Assembly: GCA_021325595.1 (NCBI GenBank)
Contig: JAJPGX010000006.1
Location: forward strand, 1 to 35,029
Source of the DNA: Nitrososphaerota archaeon
GTDB taxonomy: Archaea; Thermoproteota; Nitrososphaeria; Nitrososphaerales; Nitrosopumilaceae
Reading direction: 5' to 3'
DNA: 35,029 bases
A program made the translations under genes and the position numbers. This document shows, piece by piece, positions 22,075 to 34,365 of the stretch (its first letter is position 1; every line of letters starts with the position of its first letter). A model generated the notes under the pieces. It made no database searches. It was not told the origin of the DNA and saw only the letters and a program-made list of their open reading frames with translations.

Positions 22075-23049
22075 CTAGTAATGAAATACAGTGTCCCCTA
22101 TGGTCTTCTTCCAATCTGCACGAATTCCAGGCTTTCCTTTAAGTTTTTCTACATAATTAAAAGCAGATAATCCGGCTGTAGCCCCGCCTGAACATGCCGC
22201 TACTATCTGTTTGTATGGTATGCTGGTAGCATCTCCTGCTGCAAATATTGCAGGATGTGTTGTCTTTCCTTCCACTGTTGTCTCTATTTCATTTTTTGAA
22301 TTGATCTTCACTAGATGTTTTATGAAATCAAGATTTATCTTTGAACCCATTTCTATGAACAGACCGTCTACAAGAATTGATTTTTCTTTTCCAGAATTAT
22401 CTACCAGAGTTATTGATTGAAGATTATTGACACCAGATAATGCCTTAATAGACGATTGTGGAACAAGTTCTATGTTTTCTTTTTTTTCAATTGCCGCGAT
22501 CATATCCTTGTCGCCTCCCAGAGCACCTCCCTTGTAAATCAAATAAATCTTGGAAGCCATACGAGAAAGTAAAATTCCAGATTCTAACAAGTATCCTCCG
22601 ACCCCAACTACTGCAGTTGTTCTTCCCTGATAAAATGGTGCATCGCATTTTGTGCAATAATGCACACCTTTGTTTACAAACGTCTGTTCATTTTCAACTC
22701 CTAGATTATTTGGCACTTTTCCCGGTGCTGCAACTATTGCCTTTGTTATGTATTCAGAACGGCTTGTTTTTACTTTGAGCCCACCTTCAATCTCGTCAAC
22801 TCTCTCAACTGTATCATAGATCATCTCTCCGCCAAACATGAGAAACTGATTTTCAAGCGTCTTTGCAAGAAGTGGGCCGCTTGACATTATTGTGCCAGGA
22901 TAATTTTCAAGCTTTGGTATTAGGTTTAACTGTCCTCCCAAATCTTTTGAGATTAATAAACAGGCGACTTTCTGCCTTGCTACAAATATTCCAGCAGATA
23001 ATCCTGCAGGTCCACCCCCTATTATTATTACCTCGTATTCTTGGGCCAA
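22075..23049 (-). CDS. trxB: Thioredoxin-reductase-like flavoprotein with atypical NAD(P) site
   Basis: A 324-residue two-domain flavoprotein of the TrxR fold. FAD is bound by IIIGGGPAGLSAG (from residue 8) and the ATSIPY-type end AAGDATSIPYKQIVAACSGG. The redox pair is Cys132-Cys135 in YCTKCDAPFYQG. In the NAD(P) domain the dinucleotide motif reads VVGVGGYLLESG (147-158) instead of GGGNSAxEEA, and the usual HRRxxxR motif for NADPH is replaced by IYKGGALGGD (171-180). It likely reduces a thioredoxin or similar thiol protein, but NADPH may not be the donor; ferredoxin-, F420- and pyridine-nucleotide-independent TrxR relatives are known. A one-domain Lrp protein gene ends one base before its ATG. 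Confidence 0.85.
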   Translation of the reverse strand: MAQEYEVIIIGGGPAGLSAGIFVARQKVACLLISKDLGGQLNLIPKLENYPGTIMSSGPLLAKTLENQFLMFGGEMIYDTVERVDEIEGGLKVKTSRSEYITKAIVAAPGKVPNNLGVENEQTFVNKGVHYCTKCDAPFYQGRTTAVVGVGGYLLESGILLSRMASKIYLIYKGGALGGDKDMIAAIEKKENIELVPQSSIKALSGVNNLQSITLVDNSGKEKSILVDGLFIEMGSKINLDFIKHLVKINSKNEIETTVEGKTTHPAIFAAGDATSIPYKQIVAACSGGATAGLSAFNYVEKLKGKPGIRADWKKTIGDTVFHY

Positions 23050-23050
23050 T

Positions 23051-23281
23051 TTAGTTGATAGATATCAGTGAAGTGAGATTGTTGATGCCTTCAATTTTGT
23101 GCAAGTCTTCATCAATAGCTTTTTTGATCTCTTGCATATTGTCTGATTCCAGAACTAATAAAATATCATACATGCCATAAGTTGTTTTTACACTTTTTAC
23201 TATTGATATTTTTTTGGCAGCTTCGATTATTTTATTTTGGTGTTTATAATCTACATTTAGTAGAACAAATGCCTCATTCAC
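23051..23281 (-). CDS. Stand-alone Lrp/AsnC ligand-binding (RAM) domain protein
   Basis: A 76-residue protein made only of the effector domain of Lrp/AsnC regulators: EAFVLLNVDYKHQNKIIEAA, VKSVKTTYGMYDILLVLESD and a final INNLTSLISIN strand. The DNA-binding half is absent. Such domains form octamers or decamers that bind amino acids and can co-assemble with full-length regulators. Its TAA lies one base before the ATG of the TrxR-like gene, so the two are one transcript. A second copy of this type is at 29297-29533. Confidence 0.88.
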   Translation of the reverse strand: MNEAFVLLNVDYKHQNKIIEAAKKISIVKSVKTTYGMYDILLVLESDNMQEIKKAIDEDLHKIEGINNLTSLISIN

Positions 23282-31942: not shown

Positions 31943-33199
31943 CTAGTTCAGCCTGCTTCTCTTGTATCTATATTTATCTAACTTGATTAATTCTTTATAT
32001 GAACCAAATTGAGATGTATCTGTTATCCTATCCAATGGATCTATGTTATCTTCTAGAGTGAATTTTTTGATTATTTTATATGATGTTGTTCTCTGAGCTG
32101 GAACTCTTCCTGCCTGCCTGATTATCTCTCTTATTCTTTTTGGTTTTAGTAATTGTCCGTGCCCTGCACCTGCTGCAATTGAAATGCTTTCATTGATCAA
32201 CGTTCCTCCAAAATCATTTGCGCCCCAAACAAGGGTTAGCTGTGCCATGCCAACACCTTCCTTTACCCAAGATGTCTGTATGTTGTTTATGTAGTTGTTT
32301 AACATTATTCTGGAAATTGCATGCATCAAAAGAACTTCTCTTCCATCTGCACCATTTTTTATTCCATGATGAAGTTTTTCTCGATACATGGGGGCCTCGC
32401 TATGGATGAAATTGAGCGGAACGAACTCTGTAAAACCTCCGGTTTCTTTTTGGATGTCTCGAATTAGTGCAACATGCTTTGCTCGGTCTTCTGGAGATTC
32501 CAAATGACCAAACATTATGGTTGATGTGGATGGAATACCAATACTGTGCGCTGTTTTTATTATTTCAATCCACTTGTTTACGCTAATTCTTCCAGGGGAA
32601 ATCTTGTCACGCAATTTCTGATCTAAAATCTCAGCAGCTGTTCCAGGAAGAGAATTTACTCCTGCATCTTTTAATCTTAGTAAATATTCCTTTATTGAAA
32701 GATTAGATCTTGTAGCTCCATACAATACCTCCTCAGGTGAAAAACCATGAATGTGAATATCTCTAACTTCATTTTTGATTGCTTTGCATATGTTCTCATA
32801 TGTAGAACCATCCATGTCTGGAGGAAGTCCGGCTTGAACACAAACTTCAGTTGCTCCAAGACTGTGTGCTTCTTTTGCCCTTCTTACTATTTCCTCTACT
32901 GGTAAAAAGTAACCTTCTTCTTCACGAAAGTCCCTACTAAATGCACAAAACCCACACTGCTTTATGCAAACATTTGTAAAATTGATATTTCGATTTACAA
33001 CATAAGTGACAATGTCCCCTACCTTTCTTCTACGTAATTCATCTGCAACTAATCCAACTAGATGGAAATCCAGGCCATTCGCATAAAAAAGCCTGGTTGC
33101 CTCTTTCACAGAAATTTCTTTTTCTGATAACGCCCTTTGCAAAGTATCAGCTATTAGCGGATCCGCATTTTTGATTAGTGATTCAAAATACGAGTTCAT
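31943..33199 (-). CDS. cofH: FO synthase subunit 2 (5-amino-6-(D-ribitylamino)uracil--L-tyrosine transferase)
   Basis: A 418-residue radical SAM enzyme that joins tyrosine-derived 4-hydroxybenzyl to the flavin precursor, making the FO core of coenzyme F420 with CofG. The cluster ligands are Cys78, Cys82 and Cys85 (CIKQCGFCAF), followed by EEEGYFLPVEEIVRRAKEA with the usual TEVCVQAGLPPDMDG. The length and end (FTLEDNIDPLDRI) match CofH. Its ATG overlaps the stop of cofG by four bases (ATGA), and the PmbA gene starts right after its TAG. The operon cofG-cofH-pmbA is clear from these overlaps. Confidence 0.96.
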   Translation of the reverse strand: MNSYFESLIKNADPLIADTLQRALSEKEISVKEATRLFYANGLDFHLVGLVADELRRRKVGDIVTYVVNRNINFTNVCIKQCGFCAFSRDFREEEGYFLPVEEIVRRAKEAHSLGATEVCVQAGLPPDMDGSTYENICKAIKNEVRDIHIHGFSPEEVLYGATRSNLSIKEYLLRLKDAGVNSLPGTAAEILDQKLRDKISPGRISVNKWIEIIKTAHSIGIPSTSTIMFGHLESPEDRAKHVALIRDIQKETGGFTEFVPLNFIHSEAPMYREKLHHGIKNGADGREVLLMHAISRIMLNNYINNIQTSWVKEGVGMAQLTLVWGANDFGGTLINESISIAAGAGHGQLLKPKRIREIIRQAGRVPAQRTTSYKIIKKFTLEDNIDPLDRITDTSQFGSYKELIKLDKYRYKRSRLN

Positions 33200-34365
33200 T
33201 TCATATACTCCAAACTTACAAGTCCGTGTTGATCTGAGATTTGTAACATTTTTTCCTTAAGACTGTCATCTACCAATGCAAAAAATTCGGGATAAACTGG
33301 GAATCTGTTCCTCATGACAAATCCTGCATTTTGACAGTTTTTTTCCACCTCTTTAATTTTTGGCCATGGAGATTCTGGATTTACATAATCTGGTGTAATT
33401 GGAGAGATTCCACCCCAATCATTTATTCCTACCTCCAGAAAATCTTGGTACGAGTTGGGTGAAAGATTTGGAGGTATCTGTATATTCATTTCAGGTATTA
33501 TGATTCTACAAAGTGCAACTAGTATCTTGAAGTATCTTTCTTGAGGACTTGGAGCATTGCTCATCGGTGTATTAGGTTTTGGATGAAAATTTTGTAATAT
33601 GACTTCTTGAATATTTCCAAATTTTTCATGCAAGTTTCTTATTGTATAAATGGAATCAATTATCTCAAAGGGGGTTTCCCCAATACCTATTAGAATTCCA
33701 GTTGTCATGGGTATTCCTAGTTCCCCCGCATTTTCTAGTATTTTGATACGTGCTTTGGGATGCTTGCTTGGGGCCATGTGGTGAGGCATACCTTCCATGT
33801 AAAGCCGTTCGCTTGAATTTTCAAGCATTAATCCTAAACTAACATTTGTTTTTTTCAGTTCATTCATTTCGGATCTTGTAAGATTTCCAGCGTTTGTATG
33901 AGGAAAAAGTCCTTCGTTCAAAGCAATCTCTGACGCATGAACCAAATATTCAGCAGTACTGGTAAAACCATTTTCTTTAAGCCATGCCTTTGCCTCTTGA
34001 TATTTTTGCTCTGGTCGCTCTCCGGTAACAAACAATGCCTCAGTACATTTGTGCCTTGTACCCAGTGCAGCAAGTTGTTTTATATCATGTTTTGTCATCA
34101 TGGTCATCTTTGCCTCTCCCGGCTCTGCCTTGTAAGTACAGTAAGAACATGTATCTCTGCATAGGTTGATCAAATTGAAGAAAACTTTTCTTGAATATGT
34201 TACAAGATTTCCTTTATTTTTGGTTCTTAAAGTTCTGGATACTTGAAATAATTCTGAAGGCTCTTTCTCAGCTTCTTGATAAATCTGATAAGCCTCGTCC
34301 TTGGATAATTTCTTATTTTCTGTTATTTTCATTAATAGTTCGGAACTTGGTATGAGCTTGCTCAA
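33196..34365 (-). CDS. cofG: FO synthase subunit 1 (7,8-didemethyl-8-hydroxy-5-deazariboflavin synthase)
   Basis: A 389-residue radical SAM enzyme that closes the deazaflavin ring of FO. Cluster ligands are Cys69, Cys73 and Cys76 in CRDTCSYCTYKAEPGE, and the family segment TEALFVTGERPEQKY follows, with the later block VILQNFHPKPNTPMSNAPSP and GGISPITPDYVNPESPWP. The length is normal for the archaeal separate subunit. The start is TTG at 34363-34365 with an in-frame TAG just before; ATG at residue 12 is the alternative. Four-base overlap with cofH; the HtrA-like gene lies 39 bp upstream. Confidence 0.96.
   Translation of the reverse strand: MSKLIPSSELLMKITENKKLSKDEAYQIYQEAEKEPSELFQVSRTLRTKNKGNLVTYSRKVFFNLINLCRDTCSYCTYKAEPGEAKMTMMTKHDIKQLAALGTRHKCTEALFVTGERPEQKYQEAKAWLKENGFTSTAEYLVHASEIALNEGLFPHTNAGNLTRSEMNELKKTNVSLGLMLENSSERLYMEGMPHHMAPSKHPKARIKILENAGELGIPMTTGILIGIGETPFEIIDSIYTIRNLHEKFGNIQEVILQNFHPKPNTPMSNAPSPQERYFKILVALCRIIIPEMNIQIPPNLSPNSYQDFLEVGINDWGGISPITPDYVNPESPWPKIKEVEKNCQNAGFVMRNRFPVYPEFFALVDDSLKEKMLQISDQHGLVSLEYMK

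Follow-up and report, generated by a model that had tools for sequence, protein, structure and literature searches.

What donates electrons to a thioredoxin reductase (TrxR)-like enzyme that has lost the motifs by which such enzymes grip NADPH? The question is raised by a gene in a stretch of 35,029 nt from a soil ammonia-oxidizing archaeon of the Nitrosopumilaceae (the whole stretch analysed, called the window here). The features on which the argument relies are the following.

22075..23049, minus strand: TrxR-like flavoprotein, predicted to be of a non-NADPH type, 324 aa, with a TTG start at 23049
23002..23019, minus strand: FAD-binding motif GGGPAG, residues 11-16 (G11, A15 and G16 invariant in an 11-sequence alignment)
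22645..22656, minus strand: redox site CTKC, residues 132-135
22576..22605, minus strand: GVGGYLLESG, residues 149-158, a degenerate pyrophosphate loop (GxGxxL, not GGGxxA)
22510..22539, minus strand: IYKGGALGGD, residues 171-180, in the place of HRRxxxR, with K173 as the sole basic residue
22078..22140, minus strand: conserved C-terminal tail, residues 304-324, ending GKPGIRADWKKTIGDTVFHY
22111..22116, minus strand: D312-W313, invariant in the tail (W313 pairs with chain residue 318 of PDB 5J60, taken as W315)
23051..23281, minus strand: stand-alone Lrp/AsnC ligand-binding (RAM) protein, 76 aa (PF01037, E 1.3e-9)

The TTG start agrees with the start of the orthologs. The protein matches Pfam Pyr_redox_2 and has the fold of low-Mr TrxRs, an FAD domain with an inserted CxxC domain, including the second FAD motif (FAAGD, residues 269-273). 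The GGGxxA and HRR motifs for NADPH of the thioredoxin-disulfide reductase family (NCBIfam TIGR01292) are both absent, and the protein scores 247.9 bits against this model, below its curated cut-off of 343.45. The same genome encodes a canonical NADPH TrxR (contig C18, 32% identity) that is alike in fold, FAD motifs and CxxC. This paralog differs in that it carries GGGDSAMEEA in place of GVGGYLLESG and HRR in place of Y172-K173-G174 at the 2'-phosphate site (within IYKGG), and in that it lacks the tail. The original prediction had described normal FAD and CxxC sites beside replaced NADPH motifs, and it was right on both counts, since GGGPAG, FAAGD and CTKC are intact while the loop and the YKG segment depart from the canonical sequences. 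The 2'-phosphate site is not wholly stripped, because one basic residue, K173 (Arg in some orthologs), still stands where E. coli has R176. On its motifs, the enzyme is predicted to be an NADPH-independent TrxR-like protein, from an archaeal clade that can be recognized as such.

The window comes from a Nitrosotalea-like genome, as its nearest named records belong to Nitrosotalea species (up to 90% identity). Orthologs at 72-90% identity are present in 58 of the 200 sampled genomes of the family, and in 34 of 37 genomes of the same genus (one split by a stop). Many other family genomes, including the sampled ones of the largest genus (g11), give a match of only ~31-36%. The ortholog also occurs in Nitrososphaeraceae and Nitrosocosmicus. 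Among ammonia oxidizers the tail is nearly invariant, and every row has Leu at the third position of the loop (GxGxxL). Against congeners, where dS is unsaturated, dN/dS is ~0.04-0.05. Given the 58 genomes with an ortholog, the conserved replacement motifs and the low dN/dS, the loss of the NADPH motifs is neither a sequencing accident nor decay.

The original prediction had left out two features, the conserved tail (GIRADWKKTIGDTVFHY) and membership of a Thermoproteota TrxB clade. Relatives at ~36-43% identity across the Thermoproteota also lack HRR and also end in a tail with the D-W pair; after the last helix of the FAD domain, only G305, D312 and W313 are invariant in the 11-sequence alignment. 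We assembled a non-redundant set of 83 proteins, drawn by similarity to the window protein. The D-W tail is present in 55 of them, none with HRR and none with a GGG loop, and HRR is present in 19, none with the tail. Six others combine a GGG loop with the absence of both HRR and the tail, and three lack motifs and tail alike (in L114 and L145 the open reading frame reaches a contig end, whereas L165 is a true exception). Fisher's test of tail against HRR gives p = 2.7e-12, a value that overstates independence: the tail is consistent with one origin, and the proteins were selected for their resemblance to the query. In a quick maximum-likelihood tree built after deletion of the tail and motif columns, all 55 D-W proteins and L165 fall into one group (SH-aLRT 95; support was by SH-aLRT, without bootstrap). 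The HRR triad is absent from the entire clade, D-W is kept in 55 of 56 members, and the position of the last Arg of HRRxxxR is non-basic in every member. L165 is a member by the tree, yet has neither HRR nor the D-W tail. Four proteins of one Thermoproteota family (f11; L129, L132, L141 and L150) keep 'HR' at the 2'-phosphate site while the second Arg is gone, and this lineage is a possible intermediate in the loss of NADPH binding.

A search of plasmids by tblastn returned NADPH TrxRs and AhpF homologs, three of which reach residue 314-317 and lie outside the D-W clade by their motifs. One of these three, an HRR-type TrxR (L187), ends in HDWSKSL, which shows that chance can produce a short D-W ending.

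Motif loss over the whole clade makes a donor other than NADPH a well supported prediction, and the tail points to which donor this may be. Separate HMMER matches to 5J60, the Gloeobacter ferredoxin-dependent flavin TrxR (FFTR), extend to chain residue 318 and stop there, facing W313 or the Trp of the clade profile. Residue 318 was identified from alignment coordinates: the 5J60 chain has 320 residues and the native protein ends at 317, so that, given a three-residue N-terminal tag, it corresponds to W315. Among the listed matches of the profile search other than 5J60, none extends past profile position 46, and the Trp is at position 53. In the Gloeobacter enzyme the native tail comprises Ser307-His317 and its Trp is a reported determinant for catalysis (PMC8469568); W315 lies stacked against the other protomer's FAD and has been proposed to move aside in the course of the cycle (PMC12796991). 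The window protein thus has, as do cyanobacterial FFTRs, a conserved Trp at the aligned flavin-stacking position, where stacking is predicted from the alignment. A stacked aromatic residue alone does not exclude NADPH, because NTR-type ferredoxin-NADP reductases also stack one on the flavin and yet use NADP(H) (PMC12796991). On the clade profile, 5J60 scores 217.8 bits, against up to 294.6 for ordinary NADPH TrxRs, so the Trp tail may be convergent with that of FFTR.

Loss of the 2'-phosphate grip with retention of NADH binding would make the protein an NADH-dependent TrxR. Some TrxRs that use NADH, among them TmTR and DvTR3, have lost HRR alone (PMC5627308), and NADH is possible within the clade because 21 of its 55 D-W members retain GxGxx[AG]. 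No ammonia-oxidizer row does so, however, as each has the loop Leu, and a Trp tail would be expected to compete with nicotinamide on the flavin. Moreover, neither NADPH nor NADH reduces DvTRi, in which both motifs are similarly lost and one Lys is left (PMC5627308). We regard NADH as an unlikely donor.

By analogy with FFTR, the enzyme is most likely driven by ferredoxin, a reading that we hold with slightly better than even confidence and that follows from the alignment of the tail Trp with W315, which stacks on the partner FAD. In this scheme, two reduced ferredoxins would in turn each pass one electron to FAD in the open homodimer, with W313 from the other subunit's tail stacked on the isoalloxazine ring. 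The tail would then swing off and the domain with the C132-C135 disulfide would rotate onto the flavin. FADH2 would reduce the disulfide, and the domain would swing out to reduce one of the cell's thioredoxins, the presumed acceptor. The genome encodes 4Fe-4S ferredoxin-type proteins and has three thioredoxin-family matches, which permits the scheme. No conserved ferredoxin gene was found beside the TrxR-like gene among the loci examined, and inspection by eye of 20 crenarchaeal and Nitrosocaldaceae loci gave no recurrent ferredoxin or thioredoxin neighbour. A PrxQ/Bcp-type thioredoxin-dependent peroxiredoxin is encoded at 205-663 of the window (minus strand) and is a possible downstream user of reduced thioredoxin.

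The original prediction had named coenzyme F420 beside ferredoxin, pointing to two F420-precursor genes in the window, and both are indeed there.

31943-33199, minus strand: cofH
33196-34365, minus strand: cofG

These genes overlap by 4 nt and both score over their curated cut-offs. A DFTR-like enzyme would take a hydride from F420H2 to FAD and pass electrons through CxxC to thioredoxin. Such an enzyme exists in Methanococcales, although it is listed from there only (PMC8498797), and the genome studied here has two matches to the F420-ligase family. The ligase was found in all ammonia oxidizers tested, so F420 is possible for this branch. Its use as the common donor of the clade is disfavoured, since 28 of 56 genomes with a D-W clade member, many of them ~99% complete, gave no ligase match in a search whose controls behaved as expected, and cofG and cofH lie ~9 kb from the TrxR-like gene. 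We consider an F420H2-dependent TrxR quite improbable. The expectation of a donor other than NADPH is thus reinforced by motif loss throughout the clade, the ferredoxin option has gained from the conserved Trp tail, and F420 has lost ground as a general donor.

A structure predicted by AF2 with an 81-row alignment has a pLDDT of 92.3 (31 from the single sequence), with the tail poorly defined from about residue 311. By Foldseek, this monomer lies 2.0-2.7 Å from the best-matching NADPH TrxRs and 13.6 Å from 5J60. The Lactococcus TrxR fits it at 2.5 Å in the FO form and at 6.9 Å in the FR form, which indicates a closed FO form for the model and domain rotation as the source of the poor fit to the open 5J60. 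Stacking of the tail needs a dimer, and the modelled monomer neither supports nor refutes it.

The stop codon of the RAM-domain gene lies 1 nt ahead of the TrxR-like start. In all 58 named orthologous loci that include upstream DNA (L063-L121 less L119) it is the gene immediately upstream, mostly with a gap within 12 nt; a few gaps are larger, and broken or partial open reading frames account for two of these. With the same query, no RAM gene was found in the available flanks of the Nitrosocaldaceae or crenarchaeal members of the clade. The RAM-domain protein is likely a functional partner of the TrxR-like enzyme.

Such tight linkage in ammonia oxidizers could also fit a repurposed protein, either a flavin disulfide oxidoreductase or a redox sensor, that leaves thioredoxin unreduced and is possibly coupled to the RAM protein. 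The canonical TrxR in the same genome is in keeping with this, as are the related DDOR enzymes, which have abandoned the thioredoxin role (PMC9025218). Further support comes from the Nitrosocaldaceae, where six of seven genomes (L188-L193) encode an ortholog (55% identity) that has YATKSEAP in place of CxxC and keeps the FAD motifs and the D-W tail. Both cysteines are replaced in all six genomes of one genus. Five of these six genomes also encode a CxxC-bearing D-W paralog (one split over two frames), and all six have a third, NADPH-type TrxR match (~31%). Loss of CxxC with retention of the D-W tail suggests that the flavin and tail part can function without the disulfide. Against repurposing of the window protein, the 30 orthologs that were aligned keep CTKC and also the KG and FY residues close to where thioredoxin usually binds, and we consider this reading fairly unlikely.

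Returning to ferredoxin, we tentatively extend the proposal to the clade, at somewhat less than even confidence: the Thermoproteota proteins may be a large and anciently diverged group of Trp-tailed, ferredoxin-driven TrxRs that exist beside the NADPH TrxR, forming a locked two-gene unit with an amino-acid-sensing RAM protein in mesophilic ammonia oxidizers and giving rise to a cysteine-less flavoprotein in Nitrosocaldaceae. In a review of 2020, ferredoxin-dependent flavin TrxRs are listed from certain bacteria only (PMC7278568). Should the proposal hold, thiol redox control in ammonia-oxidizing and thermophilic archaea could be supplied straight from ferredoxin, and the whole clade would be misannotated under the label of a plain NADPH thioredoxin reductase. 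The tail and motif signature offers a simple means of separating the two TrxR types.

Several known enzymes resemble the window protein in part. Desulfovibrio vulgaris TRi likewise has both NADPH motifs replaced, one basic residue at the R176 place and a canonical TrxR in the same cell (PMC5627308), but is bacterial and falls outside the archaeal clade by similarity. Sulfolobus solfataricus TrxB2, named a putative non-NADPH TR (PMC5627308), probably belongs to the same Thermoproteota clade, where we place it by its description; it differs in its loop sequences, and no RAM partner was found beside related crenarchaeal members. The F420-dependent DFTR of Methanocaldococcus, also compared by description, shares the TrxR fold and the absence of HRR (PMC5627308). 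DDOR has a second flavin per subunit and no thioredoxin-binding motifs, whereas the window protein keeps the KG and FY positions. The FFTR of Gloeobacter violaceus (5J60/6XTF) has in common with it the TrxR fold, CxxC and an FAD motif, the loss of the NADPH motifs and site, and a tail Trp at the aligned position. FFTR is not the closest sequence to the archaeal protein, for which use of ferredoxin is proposed by analogy. Unlike FFTR, the ammonia-oxidizer tail continues for 11 residues past the Trp, and pairing with a RAM-domain gene is a feature of the archaeal protein.
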